64,000 bases of DNA from a virus. Each line of letters begins with the position of its first letter. Position 1 is the first letter of the stretch. Location of the stretch: the IMG/VR virus record IMGVR_UViG_3300025096_000004, positions 124,001 through 188,000 of that record, one strand, 5' to 3'. The notes beneath the pieces were generated by a model that was given only the letters and a program-made list of their open reading frames with translations, made no database searches and was not told where the DNA came from. Made by a program: the position numbers and the translations under genes. Below are positions 3 through 62,727 of the stretch, piece by piece.

Positions 3-458
3 ATGACAAACCCCGGCGGCATCATGGCAGTTGATAATTTGTCTGCCCCAGCTTTTGGCTCAGGCCAAGAAGGCGCAGAACTTGCTTTAAAGGCAACACA
101 GTTGGCCATCGCCGGAATCGCCGGAAATGTTGTCACAAATGACACTGATGTTAATCTTTTAGAAGTAGATGTTGCCACTTTGGAAAAATATGTTTTAAGT
201 AGAATAAGTGATGAAGTTGTGCAAATGCTTTTTAATGCCGAAAAGATACCCAAAGCGGATAAAAGATTGGCTGCCAAAATGTACGGCAAGAATCTTATGT
301 TGGTCCAAAGAGCACAAAAGGGTAAATTCCAAAGAAAACTTGGCATGCCTCAAGCCGCCGATTCCGGAACTAACCAAGCTAAAGTCAACAAGGCCCTTGA
401 ACAAGGTCTTGTCAATTTTGATTCCCCTGAGAGAGATGATATAAAGGGCAAAAAATGA
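3..458 (+). CDS. Hypothetical protein, probably head-associated
   Basis: I do not recognise a family. The reading frame begins two bases into the window, so the true start may lie upstream; a second Met at residue 8 (MAVDNLSAP) is an alternative. The N-terminal half is hydrophobic and Ala/Gly/Val-rich without a clear membrane segment. The C-terminal half is lysine-rich and probably helical. Its stop overlaps the next start (ATGA at 455-458), so the two are probably translationally coupled. The position just ahead of virion genes suggests a head or assembly role, which is inference only. Confidence 0.6.
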   Translation: MTNPGGIMAVDNLSAPAFGSGQEGAELALKATQLAIAGIAGNVVTNDTDVNLLEVDVATLEKYVLSRISDEVVQMLFNAEKIPKADKRLAAKMYGKNLMLVQRAQKGKFQRKLGMPQAADSGTNQAKVNKALEQGLVNFDSPERDDIKGKK

Positions 459-856
459 ACAAAAATGAATTAAAAAAGATTTTGAAACCTCTGATTAAAC
501 AGTGCATCAAGGAGGTGATTTTCGAAGACGGCACTCTTTCGAATATCATATCGGAGGTTGCAAAGGGCCTCGGATCTACAACTGTTATTTCCGAGGCTCA
601 ACCAACTATACAAAAACCAATGCAGCTTGAGTCTGATAGTACAGCAGCAAAGCGTCTAGAAAGGAAAAAACGTATGCTTGATTCTATTGGTAAAGATGCC
701 TATAACGGCGTTGACTTGTTTGAGGGAACAACCCCAACTACCCAGCCCAAAGAACGGGGCCAAGGTCCCCTTGCAGGAGTAGACCCAAGAGACCCCGGTG
801 TAGATATATCTAACTTTGGCTCTTTAGGGCACTGGAAGAAGCTGGCAGGAAACTAA
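455..856 (+). CDS. Small virion-type protein with putative capsid-targeting N terminus
   Basis: 133 residues, function unknown. The N terminus (MNKNELKKILKPLIKQCIKE) is a basic amphipathic helix ending in I18-K19-E20, followed by V21. This resembles the (I/L)-x-E site cut by T4 gp21-type prohead proteases and so may be a capsid-targeting sequence. The middle (residues about 60-85) is basic. The C terminus holds a Pro/Gly/Asp-rich stretch (GVDPRDPGVDISNFG) ending near a Trp. The start is coupled by ATGA overlap to the upstream gene. The packaging role is inferred from the N-terminal pattern and gene context. Confidence 0.65.
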   Translation: MNKNELKKILKPLIKQCIKEVIFEDGTLSNIISEVAKGLGSTTVISEAQPTIQKPMQLESDSTAAKRLERKKRMLDSIGKDAYNGVDLFEGTTPTTQPKERGQGPLAGVDPRDPGVDISNFGSLGHWKKLAGN

Positions 857-857
857 A

Positions 858-1094
858 ATGAGAAAACGAATACCAAAGAAAAAAAACAATTTAACAATTT
901 ATCCTCGAAGAAATGAATCTCCAGAAAGACTTGTAAAGAGGTTTAATAAAAAAGTTAAAAAAATGGGAATAATCGATGAAGCAAAAGACCGACGCTATTA
1001 TACAAAACCTTCTGAAAAAAAACGATTGGCGAGAAAACGCGCCATCGCAAGAAGAAAAAAGGAAGAGGCAAAAGCCAAGAGAAGAACTAATTAA
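858..1094 (+). CDS. Ribosomal protein bS21-like protein
   Basis: 78 residues, very rich in Lys/Arg. Residues about 20-68 follow the bS21 pattern: an acidic-Pro entry (ESPERLVKRF), a basic helix ending in Gly (KKVKKMGIID), then arginine-rich RRYYTKPSEKKR where E. coli S21 has RREFYEKPTTERKR, and a final Arg/Lys helix. bS21 is a small-subunit protein near the 3' end of 16S rRNA and the Shine-Dalgarno helix, and S21 homologues are known from some aquatic and huge phages. Unusually, it lies in the virion operon, one base after the previous gene. It could instead be a basic DNA-binding virion protein of similar composition. Confidence 0.7.
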   Translation: MRKRIPKKKNNLTIYPRRNESPERLVKRFNKKVKKMGIIDEAKDRRYYTKPSEKKRLARKRAIARRKKEEAKAKRRTN

Positions 1095-1113: not shown

Positions 1114-1509
1114 ATGTCAAAGTATGGTGTAGGCTTAAGAAGTGTTGGCTCTTATCAAGTATCTGGGACCCCTTTTATAACAGGGAGTACAGTCCCAGCA
1201 AACGATGAAGATATCATTTCTTTCCCATATGTTACAAAAAAGGTATGGGTTAAAAATACAAAATCATCGGGGTCCACAAAGGTTATTAGAGTTCACTTTC
1301 AAGCAACCGGCTCTGGAAATGTGATTTCTGGCAAACATTTTGTTGAATTAGCGGCACAAGAGAGTGTAACTCTTGATGTAAAGTGTAGTAAAATATATAT
1401 AACAGTCAAAGCATCAGGCCAGACTTGCGATTATCAAGTTTATGCATCTTTAACAAATATACCAACTGACAGCATGTATACCCTGACAGGATCAGGAATA
1501 ACGGAGTAA
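1114..1509 (+). CDS. Virion-type beta-rich protein, paralogue A
   Basis: 131 residues, Ser/Thr/Gly/Val-rich with alternating hydrophobic residues typical of beta structure; no known family recognised. It begins MSKYGVGLRSVGSYQVSGTP and ends LTGSGITE, and both ends are shared with the next gene, so the two are tandem paralogues. A GAGGT Shine-Dalgarno precedes the ATG. The location upstream of fibre genes suggests a small exposed virion component, such as a decoration or fibre-base protein. This is inference. Confidence 0.7.
   Translation: MSKYGVGLRSVGSYQVSGTPFITGSTVPANDEDIISFPYVTKKVWVKNTKSSGSTKVIRVHFQATGSGNVISGKHFVELAAQESVTLDVKCSKIYITVKASGQTCDYQVYASLTNIPTDSMYTLTGSGITE
1143..1172 (+). repeat. 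30-bp direct repeat, copy 1
   Basis: A 30-base tract inside the first paralogue is identical to 1549-1578 in the second. The surrounding DNA has diverged, so this is either a strongly constrained segment or a trace of recent duplication or gene conversion. Confidence 0.9.
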
Positions 1510-5374: not shown

Positions 5375-8300
5375 ATGGCAGGATTAACAACAACAACAGT
5401 AGCGGCAGTCGCGGATGATGTCACATTTAAAGACGGCAATGGAAATGAAACATTGGTTCTTAAAGAAACAGCGTCCGCTGAAAACCATGTGCAAGTTCAA
5501 AATGCAGCAGATGGTAATGGCCCTACTATATCTGCCATTGGTGATGATACCAATGTTGATTTGAATGTCGCCGCCAAAGGTTCTGGTGTGGTTAATGTTA
5601 CCTCCGACATGAAAATCACCGGCACAACCCCAACTCTTACAGTTGGAGACGCAGGTGCCGAGGATACAATGATTGTATTCGATGGTAATGCTGCCGACTT
5701 CCGAATTGGTCTAGATGATGGTACAGATTCTCTTGAAATTGGAGCAGGCTCTGCACACGGAACAACTGCTGGACTTGTGATAAATTCTTCTGGTCAAGTT
5801 ACTGGTATCGGAGATGATACTCCTTCAAATGAGCAAGTTTTAACTTGGACAACCTCTGGTACTGCACGAGCAGTATGGGCCACTGCCTCAACTGGCGGAG
5901 AAGCAGACTCTGTCGCTGCTGATAATATCTCCGATGGCAATGCTGCGGTAAACATTATTACAACTTCAGGCGATATCACAATTGATGCCCAAGCAAATGA
6001 CGCAGACGTAATTATTAAAGTTGATGATGCCGGCTCTTCGGTAACAGCAGTAACATTTGATGGTAGCGACGAAGGTAACGCAATCTTTGTCAATGACCTT
6101 AAGCTACAATCAGACGCTTCCGTAATTCACTTTGGTGCAAATGATGAAATTACAATGACGCATGTTCATAATAGCGGATTAACCATAACAAATACAGTTA
6201 ATGGGACAGATGACTCACCTGTCATTTTAACTTTAAAGTCTGAAGAAGATGCAATCGTTGCTGATGATGTAATTGGAACAATTAACTTTACAGCAGGCGA
6301 TAGCGATGGAACAGATGGAGCGGCAATAGCTGCTTCAATTGAGGCTCTGGCCGAAGACACCTTCTCTGCTAGTGTCAATGAGACAAGTTTAATATTTAAG
6401 ACCGGTGCTTCGGAAGCAGCAGTCGAAAAAGCGAGATTGTGGTCTGACGGTATGCTTGAATTGACAGATTGTGTTTCTGTCGCCGGTGCTTTTGCTGCGA
6501 TCCAAGGTGCTGGTAGTTATGGAGTTATGGATTATGCGAGTAACCATACTCGCATCATTTCAAGAGGTGCAAACGGCTCCACGTTGGGAGGAATAACACT
6601 TGTTCAGGAAGCTAACGACGCCAGTCCAAGTCAAAACACCTTAGTCTTGGATACTTCTGGAAATGCAGCTTTTCTTGCTGACCTGTCCGTTGGTGACGAT
6701 CTTTCATTAGTATCCGATTCCGCCGTGCTCTCTTTCGGCGCAGGATCAGAGACCACGCTTACTCACACAAACGATGTAGGACTGGCTCTCCGCCAAACTG
6801 GCGCCAATGCAATACAATGGAAAATTTTGCAAAATAACGCGACCGATGGTTGGGGTTTTCATGCCGATAGCTCCGATGGCAAAATGAAGATTTCCCGTAT
6901 CTCCGCAAGCCAAACTGGATTCTTTTCAGTCAGTAGCGAAGGCGCCGCAGAACTTGAGGGAGAGTCCGCCAGTCTGGTGATTGATAATGATGCGACCGAT
7001 GCCGACCCAATGGTCCAATTCGCCCTTAGTGGAACTGTTAAATGGTCTGTTGGTTGCGAGGATGGCGACTCCGATAAATTTGTTATTGAAAATGGTGCCG
7101 GTGCTCTGGGCGCTGCACCCGCATTAGAAATAGATTCTAGTTCAAATGTTACTGTAACCGGTGATGTTAACGTTGGAGACGATCTTACACTAACGTCTGA
7201 TGCTTCTGTTTTAACTTTCGGAGCCGGCAGTGATGTAACTTTTACCCACGACAACGGAACAGGGATGGATATTACATCTGCTGGAAATTTAGATATTGAT
7301 TGTACTGCTGGTTCTATTACACTGGGCGCTTCCTTAGCAGACGGCCAGACACTTAAACTCGGAAAGAATGGAGCAGTTGAAACTATCATTGCTCCTCATG
7401 GAACGGCAGGTAGTGAACTCTATTCTGTAATCAACACATCAGGAGTTACCGATGGTACCGACGCCGCCGGCTCAATCTTACTCAGCGCGGTTGCTGGCGG
7501 AATTGGCCTTGCTTGGGCTGATACCAAAGACCTTTGGGCTGAAGGTGGCGCCATGTCGTTTGTTGCTAATGAGAATAGAGCTAATGCTATTCACCTCCAT
7601 GCAGACGCTGGCGCAGATCAAACAATCTTATTGCAAAACGATGAAGGAACGGGTACCGGAGCCGATGATGGTTCTAGTGCTATTCAACTCCACTCAGGGG
7701 CTGGTGGTATAGGTATAACTTGCGCGGCTACAAAGAAGCTTTATATGGATGCCGGAACATTTACTTTGAAGACATCCCAAAATGATTCTGGTGCAATCTT
7801 GCTTCATGCCGATGAAGGTACAGCACAGGTTATTAAACTTGTTAACGATGAAGGAAACACCGACGGAACCGCTGGTGCCGGAGCAATTGACATTGAAGCC
7901 ACTGCTGGTGGAATAAGTCTTTTATGGGCAGACACCAAAGACCTGTGGGCCGAAGGCGGCCAAGCTATGATTGTTGCAAATCACAACACCGCCAACGCCA
8001 TCAAACTACATGCAGATGCTGGAGCCGCCCAAACCATTCAGATCCTTAACGATGAAGGTACAGTAGACGGAACCGCCGGAGCCGGAGCAATTGATATTGA
8101 AGCCACAGCCGGAGGCATGAGCCTCTTGTGGGCCGACACCAAAGACCTTTGGGCTGAAGGCGGAGCAATAATGCTTGTCGCCAATGAAAATAAAGCATCG
8201 GCCATTCAAATCCATGCTGATGCCGGCGCAAACCAAACGATTCAGATCATCAATGATGAAGGATCAGTTGAGGGAACTTACGGCTCTGGAGCAATTGATA

Positions 8301-9202
8301 TTGAAGCCACTGCTGGCGGAATAAGCCTCTTATGGAATGATGCAAAAGATCTTTGGGCTGAAGGTGGACAGTTTATTGTCACCGCCAATCATGATACTGC
8401 TGATTGTATTAAATTGCATGCTGATGCGGGAACATCTCAACAGATAACGGTTCTAAATGATGCAGGCACAAATGCCGCAGCAATTGGATTGACAGCCTCT
8501 GCTGGTGGTATTTCATTGACTTCTGCCGCCACCACTGCGACTGATGGTGTTACAATCACAGCATCCCAAACCACAAAAGATGCGGTTCAAATTACAGCAA
8601 ACTCACTTACAACCGCATACGGAATTGATATGGAGGCTGACGCTCTTACAACCGGTGGTCTTGCTCGTTTTGTTTCTAATGCAAGCAGTGATGACAATCG
8701 TAGTCTTGTAACCATTGATGCAGAACATGCAAATTCTGATAATGTTGTGCCTCTTGATATTTCAAATGCATGTACTCATGCTGATGGAAATATTATTGCT
8801 AGGTTCACTGGGCCTCTTGATGGGCTGAATGTAAAAACTAAGCAGGTAATACTAAATAGCGTCAACCACGGCTCGAATTTCTGGGTCGATGCGAGTAACT
8901 TCTTTCCTGCTGGGTGTACAGTTCTTGGTTTGACAGCAAAGGTAACAACGGTCATCCCCGCTTCTAAATATATTTCACAAATCGGCATCGTCCAAGGCGG
9001 AACGCCTGATCTAGATGCATTTGGCGTTTTTGCCAATGCTGCTACACTTGGTGCCGAGGACACCTCGGCCAAAATGGTTCCAAGAGTATTTCTAGATCAT
9101 TCCGCCCAAGCAGACCTAAGAATAACTTTTGATGGGAACCCCGGCGCCACATCTGGTGTAATTCGGGTTACGCTGTTTTACACGGACCAAGTTCCGGGAT
9201 AA
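5375..9202 (+). CDS. Giant repeat-containing tail-fibre-type protein
   Basis: 1,275 residues. The N-terminal half has LxSDASVIxFGAxxExTxTH fibre repeats like its neighbour. Residues about 700-1060 contain roughly six copies of a 68-residue repeat with the recurring core ISLLWADTKDLWAEGG, an AxxLHADAGxxQTIxxxNDEG segment and a GTAGAGAIDIEATAGG linker. The last 160 residues are non-repetitive and form a plausible globular tip (for example HGSNFWVDASNFFPAGC). It starts four bases after the preceding gene, in the same operon. The likely role is a long fibre or host-range protein. I see no enzymatic motif. Confidence 0.75.
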   Translation: MAGLTTTTVAAVADDVTFKDGNGNETLVLKETASAENHVQVQNAADGNGPTISAIGDDTNVDLNVAAKGSGVVNVTSDMKITGTTPTLTVGDAGAEDTMIVFDGNAADFRIGLDDGTDSLEIGAGSAHGTTAGLVINSSGQVTGIGDDTPSNEQVLTWTTSGTARAVWATASTGGEADSVAADNISDGNAAVNIITTSGDITIDAQANDADVIIKVDDAGSSVTAVTFDGSDEGNAIFVNDLKLQSDASVIHFGANDEITMTHVHNSGLTITNTVNGTDDSPVILTLKSEEDAIVADDVIGTINFTAGDSDGTDGAAIAASIEALAEDTFSASVNETSLIFKTGASEAAVEKARLWSDGMLELTDCVSVAGAFAAIQGAGSYGVMDYASNHTRIISRGANGSTLGGITLVQEANDASPSQNTLVLDTSGNAAFLADLSVGDDLSLVSDSAVLSFGAGSETTLTHTNDVGLALRQTGANAIQWKILQNNATDGWGFHADSSDGKMKISRISASQTGFFSVSSEGAAELEGESASLVIDNDATDADPMVQFALSGTVKWSVGCEDGDSDKFVIENGAGALGAAPALEIDSSSNVTVTGDVNVGDDLTLTSDASVLTFGAGSDVTFTHDNGTGMDITSAGNLDIDCTAGSITLGASLADGQTLKLGKNGAVETIIAPHGTAGSELYSVINTSGVTDGTDAAGSILLSAVAGGIGLAWADTKDLWAEGGAMSFVANENRANAIHLHADAGADQTILLQNDEGTGTGADDGSSAIQLHSGAGGIGITCAATKKLYMDAGTFTLKTSQNDSGAILLHADEGTAQVIKLVNDEGNTDGTAGAGAIDIEATAGGISLLWADTKDLWAEGGQAMIVANHNTANAIKLHADAGAAQTIQILNDEGTVDGTAGAGAIDIEATAGGMSLLWADTKDLWAEGGAIMLVANENKASAIQIHADAGANQTIQIINDEGSVEGTYGSGAIDIEATAGGISLLWNDAKDLWAEGGQFIVTANHDTADCIKLHADAGTSQQITVLNDAGTNAAAIGLTASAGGISLTSAATTATDGVTITASQTTKDAVQITANSLTTAYGIDMEADALTTGGLARFVSNASSDDNRSLVTIDAEHANSDNVVPLDISNACTHADGNIIARFTGPLDGLNVKTKQVILNSVNHGSNFWVDASNFFPAGCTVLGLTAKVTTVIPASKYISQIGIVQGGTPDLDAFGVFANAATLGAEDTSAKMVPRVFLDHSAQADLRITFDGNPGATSGVIRVTLFYTDQVPG
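7480..8540 (+). repeat. Tandem 204-bp (68-residue) coding repeats
   Basis: The DNA encoding the ADTKDLWAEGG core recurs at about 7515, 7927, 8130 and 8334, with a diverged copy (AATKKLYMDAG) at about 7721. The last two intervals are each about 204 bases. The reading frame is maintained throughout, and synonymous differences show the copies are not brand new. Confidence 0.8.
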
Positions 9203-9274
9203 TAATCCATTATGACTTTTACCCAAGACTATACTAATTATAAAAGAATACAAATACCTTTAGGAGAAAATTGA

Positions 9275-10483
9275 ATGTCCTCAATGTTGGAACAAGCAAT
9301 TGTAGATGCCGCATCACTAAGAGAAGCAGCACTAAAAAACGCTGAGCAAGCTATTATTGAGAAATATGCACCCGAGATCAAAAGCGCTGTTGAAAGCATG
9401 CTGCAAGAAGAACCCGGCCAACGAGGAATGGGATCTCCCGTTCGACATGGTGGACAATTGGCACGAGTTACAGTTGAGTCCGATAACGGACAAGTTGGAA
9501 TCCAATACACTTCCGGCGGCAAGACTCATTTAGTTAACGAGGCCGATCTTGAGGAAGCTACAGAAGACGATATCCTCCAAGAAGAAGAAGGTGATATGAT
9601 GGGCGGAGCTATGTCTTCCGAACCAGCCGGCTCTGACATGAACATTCCACTCGGCGCCGCAGGCGGAGAAGCTATGTGTCCTTGCCCAGATGACGAAGAT
9701 TCTGTATCTTTTGAGTTCTCAATGGATGATTTTAAGGACATGGCTCAAGAGGAAGAACCCGGCGAACCATTCCCGACCCCCGGAGCAGACGAATTGGGTT
9801 TAGATCTCGGAGACGAAGAAGAAGACCCTCTCGCTCTTCAAGAGGACAACCGCTTTCAAGAAGTTCTTGATATGCTTGACGAAATCGCCACAAGCGACGA
9901 TGCCGAGGTCATTGCAGAGGATACTCTAGAAGAAGAATTAGTTATTGATATGGCAGGCCAGCACAAGAATGGCACCATTGAGACCAACGAATCCACCCTT
10001 GCCTATCAGCAAGAAATGGAATTAGCAAAGCAAGAATCTACCAAACATAAGGAAGAGAACGAAGCTTTGGGAAAGAAACTCGAAGAGCTTGATGAAGCTT
10101 ACAATAAGTTAAGCAAAGAACATGAACTCTACGAGAACACAATTTACAAATTAAATCAGAAGGTTCAAAGTACCCTTCTGTCAAACGCAAAATTACTTTA
10201 TTCAAATCGTGTATTGAGAGATGCCTCCTTGAATGAGCGACAAAAAGTTAAAATTGTCGAAGCCATCCAAAAAGCACGTAAACCAGAAGAAGCGAAAGCT
10301 CTTTGGGAAACCCTCAGAACTACAGTGGGATCTGACAATAAAAAGAAAGGTCCACAATCACTTAGTGAGTCAGTCAACCGAAGGTCCAACCTTTCTTCTA
10401 TGTTGCCTCGTCGCAACAACGTACAATCCAAGCAAGAAGATTCATTCTCAGAGAGGATGAGGAAGCTTGCAGGCATTAAATAA
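9275..10483 (+). CDS. Prohead core scaffold protein, gp22-like
   Basis: 402 residues, highly acidic in the middle (residues about 85-220, Glu/Asp-rich), then a coiled coil (about 250-310) and a basic C terminus. The segment SNAKLLYSNRVLRDASLNER followed by QKVKIVEAI is the conserved core of T4-like gp22 prohead scaffolds. An early L-R-E/A sequence near residue 17 could be a prohead-protease site. It sits immediately upstream of the capsid gene, as in T4. It should form the internal core on which gp23 assembles and then be degraded. Confidence 0.85.
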   Translation: MSSMLEQAIVDAASLREAALKNAEQAIIEKYAPEIKSAVESMLQEEPGQRGMGSPVRHGGQLARVTVESDNGQVGIQYTSGGKTHLVNEADLEEATEDDILQEEEGDMMGGAMSSEPAGSDMNIPLGAAGGEAMCPCPDDEDSVSFEFSMDDFKDMAQEEEPGEPFPTPGADELGLDLGDEEEDPLALQEDNRFQEVLDMLDEIATSDDAEVIAEDTLEEELVIDMAGQHKNGTIETNESTLAYQQEMELAKQESTKHKEENEALGKKLEELDEAYNKLSKEHELYENTIYKLNQKVQSTLLSNAKLLYSNRVLRDASLNERQKVKIVEAIQKARKPEEAKALWETLRTTVGSDNKKKGPQSLSESVNRRSNLSSMLPRRNNVQSKQEDSFSERMRKLAGIK

Positions 10484-10503
10484 CATTTAAGGAGGTTTAA
10501 ACT

Positions 10504-12435
10504 ATGTCTATAATTGAAAAATTGACAGAAGGCATTGTGAACCGTGACATGAAGAAAGAAGGGCAAGCTCTTCTTAACAAATGGACGGCCACAGGTCTTC
10601 TCGAAGGTCTTGAAACTGAACAAATGAAGCATAATATGGCTCGTTTGCTCGAAAATCAAGCCAAAGAGCTTCTCCGAGAAGCATCTGGTATGGGAGCCAG
10701 AGGTGACGTTGCAGGTTTTGCTGCTGTCGCATTCCCAATTGTTCGGCGTGTATTCGCCGGACTGATCGCTAATGATCTTGTTAGTGTTCAACCGATGAGT
10801 TTGCCATCTGGCCTCATCTTCTTCCTCGATTTCGTCTATGGTGATGAACTCGGCGCCGGAACAAATGCTGCTGGAGCAACTCGCTTTGGTAACACAATGG
10901 GTAACCAAACCGGTCCAGCCGAAGGCGATTCAATCTATGGTGGTGGCAAGGTCGCCTCTGGTATCTCAGAAGGTGTTAATCTTGTTGGTGCCACCAATAA
11001 AGAAACCCTTGGTGGTCCTCGTCAAGCTGTTGGTTATGCTTATGGCTCTCCAACTGGCTCCAATGCTGATGCACTTGCAAACGGTAATGCTGAATCTAAA
11101 CTTGTTTGTGCGTATCACTTAGATGGAACCATTAATGCAGATATGGGTAACGCTATTCTTTGGGATCCTGATTTGCTGGCATCTACCGACAGTTCATTGA
11201 TTATTTTTGCAATTGATGTTGTTGCTGGTACTGTGGGTTCCGCTGATTCTAATGCTTTCGAATCGGTTACAAGTGGTGTTGTCGATGCAGACTTTGACAA
11301 TCTTGCAGCGTTTGAATTGGATACTGCTGAAGCCGCAATTTATTTGAATGACTGTACAAACATTTCAAGTGTTGCAGCCGGCGATATCCAACAGATTCGT
11401 CGCTTGACTCATCTTGTAGACGCAAATTCTGCTTTTGTGTCGTCTTTGACCAACAATGCAAAAGCAGTTCGTTTTGTTTTTGTCGGAACAGCATCTGGCA
11501 TTACATTCACTTCTGCAAATAATACCACAACTCCTGCAAAACCATCATCTGCTGATTGGGGTGCTACTAAAGTTACATTCCCCGTAAAGGATCAAGCTAA
11601 GTCAACTGCTACCTCTGCTGGTGCATTGACCTCATTCGCCATGCCATTGGAAATGAATGATAAGATCCCAGAGATCGACATCAAGGTCGATAGCATCGCT
11701 ATCACCGCTCAAACCAAGAAACTGAAGGCCAAATGGTCACCAGAGCTTGGTCAAGATCTTAATGCATACCACAACTTGGATGCTGAAGTTGAGTTGACCT
11801 CTATCCTTTCTGAGCAAGTTGCTCTTGAAATCGATCGAGAAATCTTGGCTGATCTTGTGAATGGTGCAAAAGCTGCGACCTATTATTGGTCTCGTTCTCC
11901 CGGCCTTTTCGTTAATCGCTTGACTGGTGCTGAACTTGGTGCAACTTCTGCTGCTCCCGACTTCACTGGAACGGTTTCCGAATGGTATGAAACCTTGATT
12001 GAAACAATTAATGATGTTTCTGCTCAAATTCATATGAAGACACTTCGCGGTGGCGCCAATTTTGTTGTTTGCTCTCCTGAAGTTGCTAACATTCTTGAGT
12101 TTACCTCTGGTTTCCGAGCTAATGTCACTGCTGATGCAGATAAGGGCGACATCGGAGCAGTTAAGGCTGGTTCTCTGAATCGTAAATTCGACGTTATCGT
12201 TGATCCTTACTTCCTTCGTAACGTAATCCTTATTGGGCGTAAAGGAAATTCTTTCCTTGAGTCTGGTTATGTGTATGCACCTTATGTGCCTCTCCAAACC
12301 ACTCCAACGATCTTCGGCGTAGAGGACTTCGTGCCTCGTAAAGGGGTTATGACCCGTTACGCTAAGAAGATGGTCCGTCCTGATATGTACGGTCTCGTCA
12401 TCATTCGAGGTCTTCTTGGAGAGTCTGGTTCCTAA
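10504..12435 (+). CDS. gp23: Major capsid protein, gp23-like
   Basis: 643 residues, longer than T4 gp23 (521). The region FPIVRRVFAGLIANDLVSVQ then PMSLPSGLIFFLDF is the conserved gp23 signature. The C-terminal part keeps the family blocks around ANFVVCSPEVANIL, FDVIVDPYF and VPRKGVMTRYAKKMVRPDMY. A likely prohead-protease site is L57-L-R-E59/A60, in the position of the T4 cut that removes the N-terminal 65 residues. The extra length is mainly in a Gly/Ala/Thr-rich insertion between residues about 120 and 370. A strong SD (AAGGAGG) precedes the ATG and a terminator follows the stop. Confidence 0.95.
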   Translation: MSIIEKLTEGIVNRDMKKEGQALLNKWTATGLLEGLETEQMKHNMARLLENQAKELLREASGMGARGDVAGFAAVAFPIVRRVFAGLIANDLVSVQPMSLPSGLIFFLDFVYGDELGAGTNAAGATRFGNTMGNQTGPAEGDSIYGGGKVASGISEGVNLVGATNKETLGGPRQAVGYAYGSPTGSNADALANGNAESKLVCAYHLDGTINADMGNAILWDPDLLASTDSSLIIFAIDVVAGTVGSADSNAFESVTSGVVDADFDNLAAFELDTAEAAIYLNDCTNISSVAAGDIQQIRRLTHLVDANSAFVSSLTNNAKAVRFVFVGTASGITFTSANNTTTPAKPSSADWGATKVTFPVKDQAKSTATSAGALTSFAMPLEMNDKIPEIDIKVDSIAITAQTKKLKAKWSPELGQDLNAYHNLDAEVELTSILSEQVALEIDREILADLVNGAKAATYYWSRSPGLFVNRLTGAELGATSAAPDFTGTVSEWYETLIETINDVSAQIHMKTLRGGANFVVCSPEVANILEFTSGFRANVTADADKGDIGAVKAGSLNRKFDVIVDPYFLRNVILIGRKGNSFLESGYVYAPYVPLQTTPTIFGVEDFVPRKGVMTRYAKKMVRPDMYGLVIIRGLLGESGS

Positions 12436-12462
12436 TCAGATAATCTAGGAAATTAAAATATG

Positions 12463-12491
12463 CCCCCGGAGGAAACTCCGGGGGTTTTCTT
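12463..12491 (+). terminator. Intrinsic terminator after capsid gene
   Basis: A perfect 9-bp stem (CCCCCGGAG/CTCCGGGGG) with a GAAA loop, followed by a T-rich run. It lies 27 bases after the capsid stop and should end or attenuate the capsid transcript. Confidence 0.95.
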
Positions 12492-12500
12492 TTTCTGGAT

Positions 12501-12510
12501 ACTATTTACT
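12501..12510 (+). promoter_or_regulatory. Recurrent ACTATTTACT motif (candidate late promoter)
   Basis: Directly follows the capsid terminator and precedes the next gene by 54 bases. The same ten bases occur at 13681, 14308 and 16996, and a variant occurs at 22509; all are in intergenic gaps of the virion module. Confidence 0.5.
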
Positions 12511-12563
12511 AATGATTACGCACCGAGCGTAAAGAAGAATTACATACTAAGGAGATATAAATT

Positions 12564-13034
12564 ATGTCAAGAGTTGCAAGAAGCGCAAGAGTCGCAAGCC
12601 GACAAAGAGTTGAGACACTTAGTGGAGCAAAAACCATTGAATCGGCAGAAACCGGTGAACTTTACTTGGTGTCCGCCGCCTCTACAGTGACTTTGCCACG
12701 CCCACAAGAGGGTGCTTACTTTAAATTTATTGTTAGTGCTGATATCACAAGCGCCAGCGCACTGGTTATTCAATCCCATGCTGCTGGTTCTGGAGATATG
12801 GCCGGAAGTGTTCAATGTGTTACTGAAGGTGGCAGTGGACATGCTGGCGATAATCATGCTGATGCCCAAGCTGCAATTGCCGATGGGCATGATAAATTGA
12901 CTATTGGTGATGGCTCAAACCCTATTCATGCGGGCTCTCGTGTGGAGTGCGTTTCTGATGGTACAAACTGGTTTGTTCATGGGTTCATATGGGCAAACGA
13001 TAATGGTGCCGCAGCAGCATTTGGCGACCAATAG
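12564..13034 (+). CDS. Putative capsid decoration protein, paralogue 1
   Basis: 156 residues, beta-rich, with an Arg-rich N terminus (MSRVARSARVASRQR). It shares with the next gene the blocks GELYLVSAASTVTLP, GAYFKFIV, DITSASALVI, DGHDKLTIG, a VECxSDGTxW element, and the C-terminal FGDQ. No known family is recognised. The gene is its own small unit, with a candidate late motif upstream and a UUCG-loop terminator downstream, directly after the capsid gene. That suggests a highly expressed head component such as a decoration protein. SD AAGGAG with nine-base spacing. Confidence 0.7.
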   Translation: MSRVARSARVASRQRVETLSGAKTIESAETGELYLVSAASTVTLPRPQEGAYFKFIVSADITSASALVIQSHAAGSGDMAGSVQCVTEGGSGHAGDNHADAQAAIADGHDKLTIGDGSNPIHAGSRVECVSDGTNWFVHGFIWANDNGAAAAFGDQ

Positions 13035-13062
13035 TCTCACAAGCTCCTCAAGAAAAAGACAA

Positions 13063-13085
13063 GGCTCACTTCGGTGAGCTTTTTC
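13063..13085 (+). terminator. Intrinsic terminator with UUCG tetraloop
   Basis: Stem GCTCAC/GTGAGC closed by the stable TTCG loop and followed by TTTTT. It isolates the first decoration-type gene from the second. Confidence 0.93.
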
Positions 13086-13158
13086 TATATGAGAGCACTA
13101 CTTAGTAATGAAGAACAAACATGTGTTCTTAATTAATTTTATAAGGAGAAACCTATAC

Positions 13159-13626
13159 ATGTCATATGTCGCAAAATATCAAAGAGTCGCCACCATTTCT
13201 GGCAATTACGCCATTGGCGGAACCAACCAAGCTGACCACGCTCAAGAATCGGGCCGACTCTATTTAGTTAGTGCTGCTTGCACAGTTACTCTTCCCGCAG
13301 TCAGAGATGGCGCCTATTATAAATTTGTTGTTAAGCAAGATATCACCAGTGCCAGCGCTTTAATTATCAATGCTGTTGCCGGAGAAGATATGGCTGGATC
13401 CATTCGGGTTCATGTTGAGGGAAGCTCAGGAAACGCCGCTGAACTCACCGCCATTGCACAGGCAGACCCCGCTGATGGTCACGACAAATTAACTATTGGC
13501 GGTGGCTCCAATGCCCTCCATGCTGGTTCTTGGGTTGAATGTTTCTCTGATGGCACCTATTGGTATCTTTATGGCGACATGTGGGCCAATAATGATGCTG
13601 TTGTTGCTACTTTCGGAGATCAGTAA
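13159..13626 (+). CDS. Putative capsid decoration protein, paralogue 2
   Basis: 155 residues, paralogue of 12564-13034. I chose the ATG at 13159 because AAGGAG lies ten bases upstream, the spacing used by other late genes here; the frame is open to 13108, but that extension (a Phe/Ile/Arg-rich leader) has no SD. Shared blocks are GRLYLVSAACTVTLP, GAYYKFVV, DITSASALII, DGHDKLTIG and FGDQ. It has its own terminator, a near copy of the previous one. The function is inferred to be a virion surface protein. Confidence 0.72.
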   Translation: MSYVAKYQRVATISGNYAIGGTNQADHAQESGRLYLVSAACTVTLPAVRDGAYYKFVVKQDITSASALIINAVAGEDMAGSIRVHVEGSSGNAAELTAIAQADPADGHDKLTIGGGSNALHAGSWVECFSDGTYWYLYGDMWANNDAVVATFGDQ

Positions 13627-13650
13627 CTTTTCTTCAATAGTAAGATCAAA

Positions 13651-13671
13651 GCTCACTTCGGTGGGCTTTTT
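13651..13671 (+). terminator. Second UUCG-loop terminator
   Basis: Stem GCTCAC/GTGGGC (one G-U wobble) with a TTCG loop, then TTTTT. Nearly identical to the terminator at 13063, consistent with duplication of the whole gene-plus-terminator unit. Confidence 0.93.
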
Positions 13672-13680
13672 CTGTTTGAG

Positions 13681-13690
13681 ACTATTTACT
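13681..13690 (+). promoter_or_regulatory. ACTATTTACT motif (candidate late promoter)
   Basis: Exact copy of the motif at 12501, placed nine bases after the terminator T-run and 24 bases before the next ATG. Confidence 0.5.
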
Positions 13691-13713
13691 ATATAACCTA
13701 GGAGAAGATTGTA

Positions 13714-14058
13714 ATGGGTAGAAGAAATAGAAGAAGAAAGGCAATGATGAGAAAAGTTAAAGCTGGGCACCAACTGGATGATACTCTTTTGCGTAAAGTA
13801 GGATTAGGACATGTTGTCGATGAAAGACTAAAGTTGGAAGCTGAAGAGAAAGCCCAAGCAGCCGAAGAAGTACGATTGAAGGCAGAAGAAGAGGCCCAAT
13901 TAAAGGCCCAAGCTGAAGCCAAAGCCGCCGCTGATGCGAAAGCAAAAGCAGAAGCAGAAGCTGATGCGAAAGCAAAGAAAGCCATCCCCGCAAAAGCTAA
14001 AAAACCCAAGCCCAAAAGAGCCCCACGGCGGAAATCCACTGTAAAAGAGAAGAAATGA
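13714..14058 (+). CDS. Ala/Lys/Glu-rich coiled-coil protein
   Basis: 114 residues. The N terminus is strongly basic (MGRRNRRRKAMMRK). Residues about 45-95 form a long alanine/lysine/glutamate helix with repeats such as AEAKAAADAKAKAEAEADAK. The C terminus is basic and Pro-rich (KPKPKRAPRR). There is no homology I can name. The composition resembles histone H1-like or other DNA-condensing proteins. The position after capsid genes would fit an internal head or DNA-binding protein, but a simple structural coiled coil is equally possible. Confidence 0.6.
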   Translation: MGRRNRRRKAMMRKVKAGHQLDDTLLRKVGLGHVVDERLKLEAEEKAQAAEEVRLKAEEEAQLKAQAEAKAAADAKAKAEAEADAKAKKAIPAKAKKPKPKRAPRRKSTVKEKK

Positions 14059-14297
14059 AAAAATTATCTAAATTACAACAAAAATTGTGGGATTCTGGCC
14101 AATTAAAGCCAAACCCCATCCCAAGACAAGAAGACAATTCGGTAATGATTGACAAAATGAAAAACCAATCCAACATTAACCTTATGAAGCTTAAAAAAAA
14201 TGATCTTTTAGCAATCGCCGAAGGCATGGGGTGTAAAGTGACCCCTAAGAATACTAAGAAACAAATCATTGAAGCCATTGAAAAACAATCCGCATAA
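14055..14297 (+). CDS. Small protein with SAP/Rho-N-like C-terminal motif
   Basis: 80 residues. The C-terminal 35 residues (LKKNDLLAIAEGMGCKVTPK, then NTKKQIIEAI) have the two-helix L-x-x-L-A-x-x-x-G pattern of SAP or Rho N-terminal-like nucleic-acid-binding motifs. The start overlaps the previous stop (ATGA), implying coupled translation with the basic coiled-coil protein. A DNA-binding role is plausible, but family membership is only suggested by the pattern. Confidence 0.6.
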   Translation: MKKLSKLQQKLWDSGQLKPNPIPRQEDNSVMIDKMKNQSNINLMKLKKNDLLAIAEGMGCKVTPKNTKKQIIEAIEKQSA

Positions 14298-14307
14298 TAA
14301 ATTTAAG

Positions 14308-14317
14308 ACTATTTACT
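14308..14317 (+). promoter_or_regulatory. ACTATTTACT motif (candidate late promoter)
   Basis: Third exact copy, 22 bases before the ATG of the neck-protein gene and upstream of its SD. Confidence 0.5.
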
Positions 14318-14338
14318 TGAGACTGGAGGATTATATGA

Positions 14339-15619: not shown

Positions 15620-15623
15620 ATAA

Positions 15624-16974: not shown

Positions 16975-16995
16975 TGGTTATTCAACGAACAAGAT

Positions 16996-17005
16996 ACTAT
17001 TTACT
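16996..17005 (+). promoter_or_regulatory. ACTATTTACT motif (candidate late promoter)
   Basis: Fourth exact copy, in the 64-base gap upstream of the tail-sheath gene, 33 bases before its ATG. Confidence 0.5.
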
Positions 17006-17038
17006 ACAAGATATAGTTATAAAAGGAGATAATTCTTA

Positions 17039-19999: not shown

Positions 20000-20039
20000 T
20001 TAAGTTACTAGTTAGAGTATTAATAGGAGAAACTAACAC

Positions 20040-20651: not shown

Positions 20652-20663
20652 TAGGGGTTTATA

Positions 20664-21386: not shown

Positions 21387-21435
21387 TGACAAGGCCCACG
21401 AGTCTTGGGATAAGCAAACTACAAAGAGGTGAAAA

Positions 21436-22305: not shown

Positions 22306-22309
22306 ATAT

Positions 22310-22477: not shown

Positions 22478-22480
22478 TTA

Positions 22481-22503
22481 ATGCCCGAGAGGGCATTTTT
22501 TTT
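22481..22503 (+). terminator. Intrinsic terminator
   Basis: Stem TGCCC/GGGCA with a GAGA loop and a run of eight T. It separates the gp26-like unit from the tape-measure unit. Confidence 0.93.
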
Positions 22504-22508
22504 ATTAA

Positions 22509-22518
22509 ACTATTTATA
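22509..22518 (+). promoter_or_regulatory. ACTATTTATA motif (variant of candidate late promoter)
   Basis: Differs from ACTATTTACT at the last two bases. Like the others, it directly follows a terminator and precedes a gene start, here by 18 bases. Confidence 0.4.
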
Positions 22519-34839: not shown

Positions 34840-34845
34840 AAAAAC

Positions 34846-46561: not shown

Positions 46562-46846
46562 ATGCATTTTTTACCATTTAATCGTCACTTAGTTGTCGAT
46601 TTGATTGAACAAGAAGAAAAAATAGATGAAAGTATTATAGTGCTGCCATCTGATTATGAAAAGCCTGTGTCACCCTATGCCAAGGCTATACTTATAGAAG
46701 CGTCCAGAGATTCAAAATTTTATGACTCTTTGCAAACCAATGATACAATATTGGTTGAAAGGAGAATGTTACATAAAATTGAAATTGATGACTCTTCTTT
46801 CTATTTAATATTAGAAAATTATATTTTTGGGAGAATTGATACATGA
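46562..46846 (+). CDS. GroES-like co-chaperonin (gp31-like)
   Basis: 94 residues. FLPFNRHLVVDLIEQEE, then IIVLPSDYEKP, SPYAKAILIEAS, NDTILVERRMLHKIEIDD and FYLILENYIFGRI follow the strand order of GroES/gp31. The mobile loop (EEKIDESIIVLPS) is where it would contact GroEL and keeps an I-I-V-L-P pattern. It probably caps the phage GroEL at 62785, the host chaperonin, or both. SD AAAGGAGA. Its stop overlaps the next start (ATGA). Confidence 0.82.
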   Translation: MHFLPFNRHLVVDLIEQEEKIDESIIVLPSDYEKPVSPYAKAILIEASRDSKFYDSLQTNDTILVERRMLHKIEIDDSSFYLILENYIFGRIDT

Positions 46847-47436
46847 AATTAACAAAAGACAACCTTCGCTCTTTAATCAAAGAAGTGACTTTCGAGAGAC
46901 AGAAAAGCTCTATGATTCTGTCCGAGACACCACCTGACACTGAAGATCCGCTTCCCAGCGACGTATCAAGGAAAACTTACGACAGAATCATAGACGTTTT
47001 GGAGGGCCGAGACCCTTCCGTGGAAACCATCGTCATAATGTCGGGCCAAAACCCTATGGCCCAAGAAACAGACGCAGCTAAAAATGCCATGCTAGACAAT
47101 AGACTTAAAAAAGATCTCACCAGCATGAATTTGCAATTCATCCCGGTTGGTGGCAAATTTGACAATGATGAGGACTCTGTTTTGATTATGAACCCATCTC
47201 GCGCACAGGCCGAAAGTTTAAACAGAAAATATAACCAATGGGGTTATGTCTGGGGCGAGAAATTGCCAAATTTTCAAATGATCCAAGTTGATTATGATAA
47301 AGATCAGGGCGAATTTCAGGCTCCCGGCTCCAAAGTGACCACCTTTGTCATAAAGGACAAAAAAGCTCAATTGGCCCAAGACAATTATACTTTTGATTAC
47401 GAGTCTGGTCTTAAATTTCTCATTCCATTATATTGA
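46843..47436 (+). CDS. Unknown protein with putative capsid-targeting N terminus
   Basis: 197 residues. The first 14 residues (MKLTKDNLRSLIKE) are basic and helical and end in I12-K13-E14 before V15, a prohead-protease-like site. The body includes ETIVIMSGQNPMAQ, LQFIPVGGKFDNDEDSVLIM, and YNQWGYVWGEK, suggesting an alpha/beta domain of unknown function. It is coupled by ATGA to the GroES-like gene. Packaging and injection with the DNA is an inference from the N terminus. Confidence 0.65.
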   Translation: MKLTKDNLRSLIKEVTFERQKSSMILSETPPDTEDPLPSDVSRKTYDRIIDVLEGRDPSVETIVIMSGQNPMAQETDAAKNAMLDNRLKKDLTSMNLQFIPVGGKFDNDEDSVLIMNPSRAQAESLNRKYNQWGYVWGEKLPNFQMIQVDYDKDQGEFQAPGSKVTTFVIKDKKAQLAQDNYTFDYESGLKFLIPLY

Positions 47437-48155: not shown

Positions 48156-48441
48156 GCCACTAAGGGTTGGCAATTTAATTATTTTGAGTGCTTTTGGCAA
48201 ATCAGTTATGAAACCAAACAATGCCAAAGTCGGAATCGTGATTTCAGGCCCTTATGAAAAGAATTATATGTGTGCCAAAACTGGCCTATATGTCAAATAT
48301 TTCACCTATGATGTTATCTTGGGAGAGGAACTACTTAAGGACATACCAGAAGACTTTATTTATAGAATGGGAGACGATGACCATGAAGAGAATCCACGAG
48401 GGTTGGAAGAGATATTTGAACGAGATGGAGATGAAGAGTGA
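48145..48441 (+). CDS. Small acidic protein with SH3-like N terminus
   Basis: 98 residues with a GTG start inside the end of thyX. RVGNLIILSAFGKSVM, then KVGIVISGPYEKNY, suggests a small beta-barrel, followed by an acidic tail (MGDDDHEENPRGLEEIFERD). Unknown function. The 3' end overlaps the next gene by 59 bases in another frame, one of the longest overlaps here. Confidence 0.6.
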   Translation: MGNRPLRVGNLIILSAFGKSVMKPNNAKVGIVISGPYEKNYMCAKTGLYVKYFTYDVILGEELLKDIPEDFIYRMGDDDHEENPRGLEEIFERDGDEE

Positions 48442-49114
48442 CCCCCATCAAAGTCGATTAAAAGTTGGCGAAAAGATGCGGGATTTTCTTTTTTCCCCTT
48501 TACAAATCGTAGATCCAAGTCTTGACATGTCAATGCGGGCAAGTGGGAATGTCGCCTCCACATATAACTTCTTATATTGGGCTGTGTTTGGGACAAAGCA
48601 AGAGAGAAAAGAAAACCCGGGAAGAATTTATCGCCCCAAATTGGGCCTAGAGTTTGCGCATCAAAAAGTTGAAATGCTGATGTTAAAACTTACTGACGAT
48701 GAAGAGAGAACTCTCGCTGCTGACATTGATACCATCATAGAGGTGGTAAAGACTAAACAACACCCCACAAGTAGTGTTCAAATACCAGTGACACTGACTG
48801 GGCATCCAAACGTGGAGCCTTCGTTTGGAACAACATTTTTCGGTGGCTCCGGGGCAGTTGACTGGGGCATGGGTGGTTCGATTTTGACACCAGATGGCAA
48901 GAGTTATTTGATTTACATCTTGGAAAAAATTAAAAGCCAATTACCTGAAACAGATATTGAACCTCTCCCACCAAAGGACTTGACTAGTTTGTATTTCTTG
49001 GGCCAGCCCTTTGTTCCTGCTGGTCCTGCTGATGGTGTCGAAAAGGGACACTTCTCTTCAAAAGCATTTGATTATGAAGCTTTTTTGAAGTCAATTGGCA
49101 GAGGTGGTAAGTGA
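48383..49114 (+). CDS. Unknown protein with putative capsid-targeting N terminus
   Basis: 243 residues from ATG 48383, nine bases after GGGAG. The N terminus MKRIHEGWKRYLNEMEM is a basic-aromatic helix with L12-N13-E14/M15, again (I/L)-x-E at position 14. The body is mixed alpha/beta. FGTTFFGGSGAVDWGMGG is a notable Gly-rich stretch, and the C terminus is DYEAFLKSIGRGGK. No family recognised. A packaged internal protein is inferred from the N terminus. Confidence 0.65.
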   Translation: MKRIHEGWKRYLNEMEMKSDPHQSRLKVGEKMRDFLFSPLQIVDPSLDMSMRASGNVASTYNFLYWAVFGTKQERKENPGRIYRPKLGLEFAHQKVEMLMLKLTDDEERTLAADIDTIIEVVKTKQHPTSSVQIPVTLTGHPNVEPSFGTTFFGGSGAVDWGMGGSILTPDGKSYLIYILEKIKSQLPETDIEPLPPKDLTSLYFLGQPFVPAGPADGVEKGHFSSKAFDYEAFLKSIGRGGK

Positions 49115-59103: not shown

Positions 59104-59664
59104 ATGGCTAAGAAAAAACTTTTAAGCGAAGCACAAATCCGTCGCTTCATGGGTCTTGCAGGCATGAAACCTATGGTTGTCAGCAATGTCATCCAAGAGA
59201 TGGGAATGTCTTATGAAGCAGAAGAAGACCCAGCAGATATGGAAGCTGGCGCTCCACCCGCTGCCGAAGACCCCGCTGCTATGGCAGGTGAAATGCCCGG
59301 CGATGAAATGCCCGGTGATGAAATGCCCGGAGAGCCAGAAGGCGACATGGAAGTTTCTGTCGATGAGAAAGACATTGAAGAATTGGAAATGGCTTTTGAC
59401 AAGGTGATGTCTGCACTGAAAGGTGAAGAGCCAATGGAAGAGCCAATGGAAGAACCAATGGAAGAGCCCCCAATGGAGCCTGTCGAAGAACCGCTCGAAG
59501 AGCCTGTCGAAGATGAAGAAGCGGCAATGGATGATGAGCTAGCTGAGGTCAGCCTTCAAATGTCTGAAGAAGAAATTGTTCAAGAAGTTGCCCGCCGTGT
59601 AGCCAAAAGAATTCTCAAAGCAAAGCGAGCCAAGAAAGCTTTAGATGAAGCCCTTGGTAAATAA
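59104..59664 (+). CDS. Acidic repeat protein with putative capsid-targeting N terminus
   Basis: 186 residues. The N terminus (KKKLLSEAQIRRFMGLAGMK) is a basic helix; (I/L)-x-E sites occur at L7-S8-E9 and I30-Q31-E32. The middle is strongly acidic with short repeats: GDEMPGDEMPGE, and EEPMEEPMEEPMEEPP. The C terminus is a basic helix (EIVQEVARRVAKRILKAKRA). Such charge segregation resembles scaffold or internal head proteins such as gp22, though the location in the replication side is odd. AAGGAG lies nine bases or more upstream. Confidence 0.65.
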   Translation: MAKKKLLSEAQIRRFMGLAGMKPMVVSNVIQEMGMSYEAEEDPADMEAGAPPAAEDPAAMAGEMPGDEMPGDEMPGEPEGDMEVSVDEKDIEELEMAFDKVMSALKGEEPMEEPMEEPMEEPPMEPVEEPLEEPVEDEEAAMDDELAEVSLQMSEEEIVQEVARRVAKRILKAKRAKKALDEALGK

Positions 59665-60783: not shown

Positions 60784-60794
60784 GAGATAAATTA

Positions 60795-61715
60795 ATGGCA
60801 ATTGATAGAGAATTTTACAACGAAGCCTCAGCCGCAAAGCTCGGCTGGGAACCCGAGTGGTTTGGTGTATCAACACACGACGACAGACTCACCAGAGCTA
60901 TTCGCAAGTTTCAAAAAGACAACGAACTGACTGCCGATGGCCTCTGTGGCCCATCTACTTTTCGTAGAATCTGGACCCATCGAGAGTCAAATATAGATGA
61001 CTATCGACAACCCTATGTTGTCGAGAAAGAAACCTCAGTCATTGTTCACAATGGCAAGTTCTTTCCAATTGAATGGCCTCGGGTTGTCCTGTGGTCAGAA
61101 AACCCATCCGGCCTCGATGCCAAAGAGGGAACCTATTCTTCTTATGCCGGCCACCCTGACAGGAAGCCCAGTTTCTTCGTTACACATTGGGACGTATGTC
61201 TTAGCAGCAAGTCGTGCCAATCTGTGCTTGCGAAGCGAGGAATCAGCATCCACTACATGATTGATAATGATGGTACAATTTACCAAGCATTGGACACCCA
61301 ACATGCCGCATGGCATGCCGGAGGGCGCAGGTGGAACCATAGCTCCATCGGGGTCGAAATAAGTAACGCATTTTCACTGAAGTACCAAAAAACATATATA
61401 TCTCGGGGGTTCGGAGAGCGCCCAGTAGTCACAGATGCCCGTGTACATGGAACCAAATTAAAGCCGCACTTAGGCTTCTATCCGGTACAAATTGAAGCCT
61501 TGAAGGCATTGTATAAAGCCATTCACGGAGCTACGGGTATCCCGTTGGAAACCCCACTCGACAGCAATGGTGATATGTTAACGAAAGTGTCCTCAACTGC
61601 GAAAGCAAACAAATTCAAGGGCTTCTTATCGCACTTCCATCTCACCAGAGGCAAGATCGATTGTGCAGGTCTTGACATCCAAAGGCTTTTAGAGGAGATC
61701 AAGAATGATCAATAA
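60795..61715 (+). CDS. N-acetylmuramoyl-L-alanine amidase endolysin with peptidoglycan-binding domain
   Basis: 306 residues. Residues about 25-60 are a PG_binding_1-like domain (LTRAIRKFQKDNELTADGLC, then GPSTFRRIW). The amidase part carries FFVTH131WD, SIHYMIDNDGTIYQALDTQH170, AAWHAGG, and SH280FHLTRGKIDCAGLD near the end, consistent with the zinc ligands of amidase_2. It cuts the bond between MurNAc and L-Ala in peptidoglycan. No signal peptide is visible, so a holin is expected. It overlaps the next gene by 11 bases. Confidence 0.9.
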   Translation: MAIDREFYNEASAAKLGWEPEWFGVSTHDDRLTRAIRKFQKDNELTADGLCGPSTFRRIWTHRESNIDDYRQPYVVEKETSVIVHNGKFFPIEWPRVVLWSENPSGLDAKEGTYSSYAGHPDRKPSFFVTHWDVCLSSKSCQSVLAKRGISIHYMIDNDGTIYQALDTQHAAWHAGGRRWNHSSIGVEISNAFSLKYQKTYISRGFGERPVVTDARVHGTKLKPHLGFYPVQIEALKALYKAIHGATGIPLETPLDSNGDMLTKVSSTAKANKFKGFLSHFHLTRGKIDCAGLDIQRLLEEIKNDQ

Positions 61716-62727
61716 GTTAAGCGAACTAGACAAGCTAATCACAGAAGTCATGAGTATGAGGGGCGTGGTTGCAGAGAAGGAGATGGCCACAAAAGATATT
61801 GACTTCGACCAAGAGGAAAAGCAACTTACAATCAAACTGCCGCAGTTCCGAATCACAGAGGATTGGGGAACCAAAGAGGGAAGACCCGATGTAATAAAAA
61901 AATTCTTTTCCAAAGTTGAAGGGGACACACTTGAGGCCAAAATCAAATCTTTGAACGATTTTGTTACCAATTGCGATGAAGAGTCGTGCATTAACGATGT
62001 CTCTGCTCCACAAGTTTTAACAAATCTCGTGACACTGGACATCTTGGCATCAATCATTCATCAATTCGGCCCTTCGCCTGCTGGCTTCTTGTTCGAAGCA
62101 TTCTTGGCAGCCCTTGTGAGCGGCACTCAAATCGTTCCTGATAAATCAATTTCCACTGAAGACATTATAAATAAAGATGGCCAACCAATAAGCATTAAAT
62201 TATTAAAGAAGGATGGTTATGTTCACGGCAGCTATAAAGACCTCGCCGCAGCTTGGACCCAAACCGGCCCAGATAAAGAAAAACCAGTTGTACAGGAAGC
62301 CGGAGAAGCATGGGACGGCACAATGAAATATCTTGTTGTCAACAAGTTGGGCTCCGAAGATGAACTGATCCTTCAGTGGTATCTGTTTCCCGTCACTAAG
62401 GTGCTTATGGCCGACATGCTAAAGGCAACAAAGTCCTCCGGCAAAAAAGGCCGCTATGCCGATATACACGGAACCCAATTCCGAATTAAAAAGGAATACT
62501 ATAAGCAATTCCCCCTTGCCACGCTAAACATTGGATCACGATCCAATATTGTTGAAATAGCCAGACGATACGCAGACAAGCTTGGAGATTCAATGTTTCA
62601 AATTTATTCATTGCTTGATTCTCTTGGCAACAACATTAACAACTACTTCTTAGACCAAGACACCAAAGCAGCGAAACTCGCCGCCGACCAAGCAGAAGAT
62701 CTCAAAAAAGCAATAGAAAATTATTAA
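61705..62727 (+). CDS. Unknown protein with putative capsid-targeting N terminus, nuclease-like core
   Basis: 340 residues. The N terminus MINKLSELDKLITEVMSMRG has I12-T13-E14/V15, the same position as two other candidates. PSPAGFLFEAFLAALVSG, then about 30 residues and PISIKLLKKDG, resembles a PD-(D/E)xK spacing (E...D...xK). GSYKDLAAAW follows. The likeness is suggestive only. The C terminus is Ala/Lys-helical. If packaged in the head, it might be injected to attack host DNA. Start overlaps the endolysin gene. Confidence 0.6.
   Translation: MINKLSELDKLITEVMSMRGVVAEKEMATKDIDFDQEEKQLTIKLPQFRITEDWGTKEGRPDVIKKFFSKVEGDTLEAKIKSLNDFVTNCDEESCINDVSAPQVLTNLVTLDILASIIHQFGPSPAGFLFEAFLAALVSGTQIVPDKSISTEDIINKDGQPISIKLLKKDGYVHGSYKDLAAAWTQTGPDKEKPVVQEAGEAWDGTMKYLVVNKLGSEDELILQWYLFPVTKVLMADMLKATKSSGKKGRYADIHGTQFRIKKEYYKQFPLATLNIGSRSNIVEIARRYADKLGDSMFQIYSLLDSLGNNINNYFLDQDTKAAKLAADQAEDLKKAIENY

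Follow-up and report, generated by a model that had tools for sequence, protein, structure and literature searches.

Two portable N-terminal tag families in an uncultured T4-like phage, and their likely role in loading proteins into the head

The 64-kb stretch of virus DNA analysed here (the window: bases 124001-188000 of IMG/VR record IMGVR_UViG_3300025096_000004, 191,495 bp in total) encodes several proteins with a short N-terminal peptide ending in (I/L)-x-E. The question raised by this locus is whether such peptides are addresses for entry into the phage head. The source is an uncultured T4-like phage, probably of marine origin. A preliminary description had treated five N termini (of the proteins starting at 455, 46843, 48383, 59104 and 61705) as one kind of T4-type capsid targeting sequence (CTS), and all five were found in the sequence as written. 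The observation was confirmed as real and is larger than first reported: at least two portable tag families, here named class A and class B, are carried by about 20 proteins of the source genome. From features observed directly (the motif, its position, its portability, its linkage to S77 protease and capsid genes, and its match to T4 positions), we consider it likely that the tags are head-entry propeptides of the T4 CTS type, and that the genome encodes a greatly expanded T4-style internal-protein system.

The residue-14 motif and two tag families

Motif statistics were obtained from the 225 proteins predicted in the whole record. The bare (I/L)-x-E motif was frequent (background of about 2.6 per position), so that five examples alone prove little. 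With the Glu at residue 14, as had been described for 46843, 48383 and 61705, 17 sites were counted against 2.6 expected, and every other position held 8 sites or fewer. When hydrophobic residues were also required at P7 and P4 (hydrophobic-x-x-hydrophobic-(I/L)-x-E, with the Glu at P1), 26 sites were found near N termini versus 4.3 expected, and this fuller motif was enriched at N termini relative to internal sites (Fisher P = 2.6e-6). In relatives chosen by homology to the capsid protein or to 455, position 14 was occupied 89 times versus 15 expected (1318 proteins), a count inflated by orthologues; the corresponding figures in random viral contigs were 9 and 5.8.

The class A tag, MK(I/L)TKxQLKQIIKE/E (the stroke follows the final Glu of the motif), was present on nine proteins of the record, and its window member is 46843, the tag of which matched residue by residue and the body of which matched Pfam DUF3293 (E 1.2e-8, residues 69-132). 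The class B tag, MKLIMENWRx(F/Y)(L/I)xE/, was present on about nine proteins, with 48383 as the window member (W at P7, Y at P4, L at P3 and E at P1). The open reading frame (ORF) of 48383 was called mechanically from 48254, but the ATG at 48383, used in the preliminary description, is the likely start because the Shine-Dalgarno sequence GGAG lies 9 nt upstream (48370-48373). Extension of the N-terminal motif search beyond the window, which had been proposed as a check, gave at least 15 further tagged proteins in the rest of the record.

The ends of both tags were assessed in loci chosen without reference to class A, and for class A the pattern left residues 10 onward free. Proteins picked by class A residues 1-9 alone had I12 in 48/48 cases and E14 in 45/48; in class B proteins picked by the Trp core, P3 was L, V or I in 25/29 and P1 was Glu in 21/29. 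The P1' residue of class B is mixed (E, S, A, G or D). Two unlike sequence families arrive at the same hydrophobic-x-Glu ending.

Most class A and class B loci were fetched with the tag itself, a procedure that does not impose the diversity of the bodies. The consensus vanished past residue 22, and the 268 distinct class A proteins fell into 205 body clusters (179 singletons); 100 class B proteins gave 59 body clusters. Recognised bodies were YkuD, HD, GNAT, FliG_C, LRR and DUF3293 for class A, and Nudix hydrolase, guanylate kinase, C5 DNA methylase, AAA_33 kinase, M23 peptidase and cytidylyltransferase-like for class B. The Nudix, guanylate kinase, methylase and cytidylyltransferase domains started at residues 20-25, directly behind the tag. 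Domains could be recognised in a minority of the tagged bodies. Searches of the source genome's own cargo with Pfam and PHROGs gave mostly no match, and class A bodies gave none with PADLOC.

The tags were essentially absent from cultured phages, the tag pattern was not found in 18 control virus records, and no class A tag occurred in 1.1 Mb of random viral DNA. Just a few tag-like N termini (e.g. MKKSQLRQIIKEALD) were seen in Flavobacterium phage immuto.

Two class B proteins (L187:4765-5892 and L436:4030-4488) carried YHYT- or YHVA-type motifs behind the tag; by eye they resembled ADP-ribosyltransferases (compare T4 Alt), with no match in Pfam. A possible third tag was noted at the N termini MKIRIRKKKVPFLNE and MIKIKIRKNPVLQE of 736- and 757-aa proteins of the source genome (record G000:30359-32569 and 33837-36110, respectively), where alternating basic and hydrophobic residues are followed by L-N-E/A or L-Q-E/A. 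This "class C" could not be extended to a general family: none was found in relatives, and two matches in the tag loci look like class A.

Linkage to the head protease and capsid genes

A gp21-like protease, sought in line with the preliminary description, was found as a Peptidase_S77 gene just upstream of the window (Table 1). S77 was encoded in 19 of the 21 records with class A tags, both exceptions also being devoid of gp23, and in 8 of the 15 with class B tags; among the seven others, six had no gp23 and one had gp23 cut at the contig end. Because gp23 is absent or cut off, the tagged records without S77 look like fragments that lack an intact head module. With a random 14-mer as control, S77 was encoded in 1 of 22 records, and in 1 of 14 when records of at least 55 kb were considered.

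In the smaller records the tags also lay near the protease: below 200 kb, 33 of 51 tags were within 20 kb of S77 versus 15.6 expected; in records above 200 kb this held for 2 of 46. Among 96 loci of relatives, the gene following S77 belonged to the 455 family in 56, and a class A or class B tagged gene intervened between S77 and the 455-family gene in 31. The tagged bodies occupying this slot formed 14 clusters. Which tagged gene stands next to the protease varies from phage to phage, and this slot was judged the most telling link to the head protease. The cargo genes had been assigned to the early/middle region of the genome; tagged genes do lie away from the head module, but they are found within it as well, and so are not confined to the early/middle region.

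Prokaryotic genomes (84,980 species, one genome each) contained the class A pattern in 7 stretches on 5 contigs of environmental metagenome-assembled genomes (MAGs), and the tag was rejected on these numbers as a general prokaryotic signal. Contig NHDW01000006.1 (306 kb; L422, L425 and L426), filed in GTDB under a Methylococcaceae MAG, carried 12 tag sites and an S77 gene, and is for this reason most likely a large phage binned with the bacterium.

Tagged proteins, core proteins and head module of the window

Table 1. Coordinates of the tagged proteins and head-module features (window numbering unless marked as record)
Feature	Coordinates	Strand	Details
Class A tagged protein, 197 aa, DUF3293 body	46843..47436	+	tag MKLTKDNLRSLIKE = 46843-46884
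Class B tagged protein, 243 aa, unknown body	48383..49114	+	tag MKRIHEGWKRYLNE = 48383-48424
Probable tagged protein, 340 aa, PD-(D/E)xK-like body (unproven)	61705..62727	+	tag MINKLSELDKLITE = 61705-61746
C-terminal part of class B tagged protein, 299 aa	1..458	+	start at record 123559, outside window (MSYSSDKKHKLIFENWRRFLKE); whole-record ORF call
Conserved head-module protein, 133 aa	455..856	+	site I18-K-E20/V21; in relatives follows S77 protease or tagged gene
Acidic protein, 186 aa	59104..59664	+	sites L7-S-E9 and I30-Q-E32; RRFMGLAGM near N terminus
Peptidase_S77 (gp21-type) protease	record 122027-122473		about 1.5 kb upstream of window
Scaffold candidate, 402 aa	9275..10483	+	directly before capsid gene; site L15-R-E17/A18
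Scaffold C-terminal motif SERMRKLAGIK	10448-10480	+	common to scaffolds of relatives, RM378, immuto and Mel-JY01
Major capsid protein, Gp23 family	10504..12435	+	Pfam Gp23 E 2.1e-74
Capsid maturation site L57-R-E59/A60	E59 codon 10678-10680	+	

The third candidate of the window, 61705, fits the shared motif at L8, L11, I12 and E14. A homologue with 55% identity (L005 at 10001) has the N terminus MNKNLSQLDNLIVE/I, in which I-x-E14 is kept (LIVE), and distant homologues have other N termini; by sequence, 61705 is a probable tagged protein. The preliminary description gave one of the five proteins a nuclease-like core. In 61705, E131, D153 and S163-x-K165 were invariant in the family (7 sequences); the predicted structure, of low confidence (pLDDT, predicted local distance difference test, 59), had HincII as its best PDB match (E 0.17), which is not significant. 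A PD-(D/E)xK-like nuclease body is plausible from these residues. T4-type targeting and removal by a gp21-like protease, proposed for all five proteins, is strongly supported for 46843 and 48383 and reasonably for 61705 through the I-x-E14 of its homologue; the five N termini proved not to be of one kind, since those of 455 and 59104 are unlike the portable tags.

Across 88 homologues of 455, position 18 was I or V in all and E20 was present in 97%, with residues P12, C17, G26, L28, S29 and E34 as conserved as E20. Conservation thus runs past E20; because residues on both sides of the Glu are equally conserved, 455 is better taken as a head-module and probably a core protein. The N terminus of 59104 carries the C-terminal LAG motif of the scaffold: RRFMGLAGM copies the motif R-M-x-K-L-A-G-(I/L), which was counted 88 times as the C-terminal end of an ORF in the loci of relatives and was also present at the scaffold ends of immuto, Mel-JY01 and RM378. 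At the two hydrophobic-x-Glu sites of 59104, its homologue (L005 at 7332) has L-K-E and V-N-E, V-I-Q-E32/M corresponding to V-N-E. Near N termini, this motif may serve as a second head address by imitating the tail of the scaffold, and 59104 may be a core component or a user of such an address. Besides window 59104-59166, the motif was seen near the N terminus of the L005 7332 protein and of an immuto protein (record 111675; ILSEQFRRMQKLAGIITE/S).

These two proteins bear on the best-surviving alternative, namely that some or all of the listed proteins are components of the prohead core (like T4 gp67, gp68 and gp22) which are cut up and lost during maturation, with no delivery. It is the preferred explanation for 455, which is conserved next to S77 in 88 relatives and has several conserved hydrophobic-x-E sites. 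For 59104, which is acidic and has the scaffold C-terminal motif, it is a possible one; in T4, genes 67 and 68 adjoin gene 21 and gp67 is cleaved (PMC9026906). For the listed proteins as a set it is nevertheless unlikely, as class A and class B bodies differ between genomes and include enzymes.

The scaffold (L15-R-E17/A18) and capsid (L57-R-E59/A60) sites given in the preliminary description are both in the sequence. Capsid L57 and E59 were invariant in 78/78 relatives, and the P1' residue was mostly small (A/S/N/T). By capsid protein, the nearest named records were an uncultured 484-kb phage, Flavobacterium phage immuto, Microcystis phage Mel-JY01 and Rhodothermus phage RM378; the last three, which are cultured, have T4-type head modules. 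Cultured phages gave no match to the first 20 kb of the window at the nucleotide level, and none by tblastn to the 46843, 48383, 61705, 59104 and 455 proteins. The literature search returned no virion proteome of immuto.

Other features were recorded as follows. Adjacent paralogues of 131 and 136 aa (MSKYGVGLRSVGSYQVSGTPF and MSKYNVGLRNVGSYQVSGTPW, window 1114-1509 and 1520-1930, respectively) lie between the head-module genes at 455-857 and the scaffold, and relatives have similar genes. A 522-aa protein running from window 62785 to past the window end (record 186785-188353) has, by eye, a GroEL-type chaperonin-like N terminus (ADNVASTLGPKGRNVIL). Elsewhere in the same record (G000), tandem runs of about 20 small proteins (roughly 50-75 aa) starting MKVGDLV or MKIGDxV, a single much expanded small-protein family, occupy 8043-22660, and three consecutive proteins of 394-553 aa at 65458-69690 have in common the N-terminal motif (N)PDL(I/L)ADD(H/F)SLSQ.

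Proposed function, alternatives and comparison with known systems

If the tags are T4-type propeptides, each protein would be docked to the scaffold core during prohead assembly by its short tag helix, in which P7, P4 and P3 are hydrophobic and P1 is Glu; once the prohead closes, the S77 protease would cut after the Glu and leave the body inside the head, and the bodies would be ejected alongside the DNA and act early in infection. Several points weigh against this interpretation. Class A has Glu at P1' in 45/48 proteins, unlike the small residues of the capsid site; the search pattern itself fixed much of the class A logo; the random control for S77 co-occurrence was not size-matched, and this co-occurrence could be due in part to common ancestry within a single T4-like lineage. 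We infer the steps of docking, cleavage, packaging, ejection and host effects, ejection by analogy with T4.

The tags might instead address proteins elsewhere (to the membrane, a transcription or replication complex, or the tail), the final Glu merely being part of a helix. Such a helix could bind any partner, the Glu-Glu of class A at residues 14-15 could be a helix feature, and some tagged genes are distant from the head module, above all in the records larger than 200 kb. The convergence of the two families, the link to S77 and gp23 including the slot adjoining the protease, and the match to experimentally mapped T4 residues (see below) run counter to this second alternative, which we regard as somewhat more doubtful still than loss as core components. 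Chance or common descent (a frequent motif, or paralogues of one family) is very improbable: although 80 N-terminal (I/L)-x-E sites with E at residues 10-24 occur in the source genome and some head-module orthologues add to the relatives' count, chance was ruled out by the spike at residue 14 only, the relatives and the controls, with class A lacking in random viral DNA, and one expanded paralogue family by the unrelated body clusters of both classes.

Returning to head-entry propeptides, a wider reading is favoured on balance, with less assurance. An uncultured T4-like lineage would possess a general protein-delivery system. At least two swappable head-entry tags would equip hundreds of unrelated effectors that differ between genomes (kinases, Nudix hydrolases, methylases, nucleotidyltransferases and HD phosphohydrolases) for loading through the scaffold, release by S77 and injection together with the DNA, and the tag by itself would reveal which uncharacterised genes encode effectors of the first minute. 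If the tags work as in T4, hundreds of functionally uncharacterised proteins can be recognised by a short N-terminal code as virion cargo that widespread uncultured phages deliver the moment infection begins. Many "hypothetical proteins" would then become testable injected effectors, the enzymes that a phage needs in the cell ahead of the expression of its own genes would be revealed, and new portable addresses would be available for loading phage heads with proteins.

The CTS has been suggested as a way for T4-like phages to gain cargo (PMC9026906), and the present data provide large-scale sequence evidence for this idea. The principle was already known from T4; what the present analysis adds is the tag families, with their scale and portability. 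Neither the tag strings nor the combination of phage capsid targeting and injected proteins led to a relevant paper in the literature search, most subscription papers being outside it.

Anti-restriction proteins of the DarA/DarB/Hdf type of phage P1 are loaded in the head and delivered with the DNA (PMC12810830), as the tagged proteins here would be; no portable short tag is known to be shared by them. In giant phages of the phiKZ/SPN3US type, several head and ejection proteins have propeptides, which a distant homologue of gp21 cuts off after Glu (PMC5694885, PMC9026906). Their motif is S/A-x-E and most of their propeptides exceed 100 residues, whereas P3 is I, L or V here and the tags end near residue 14; this propeptide class was rejected for the tags.

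Use of a targeting peptide is known for just a handful of T4 head proteins. The N terminus of T4 IPII and IPIII is MKTYQEFIAE/A. In T4, targeting is reported to depend on residues 4 and 7, and the gp21 cut at L/I-x-E on residues 8 and 10 (PMC9026906). Class A residues L8, I11, I12 and E14, and the Trp, Phe/Tyr, Leu/Ile and Glu of class B, have the same spacing as these four. As in T4 IPI, IPII, IPIII and Alt, the peptide is short (within the 10-20 residues of such propeptides), has hydrophobic residues at P7, P4 and P3 and ends in (I/L)-x-E, with E14 in classes A and B and in 61705; an S77 protease and a gp23 capsid protein with an L/I-x-E site are encoded in the same genome, and one peptide stands before unrelated mature bodies. 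The system differs from that of T4 in having about 20 tagged proteins, two tag families of different sequence and, in class A, Glu at P1'; its tags are common to many phage genomes, on hundreds of unrelated bodies.

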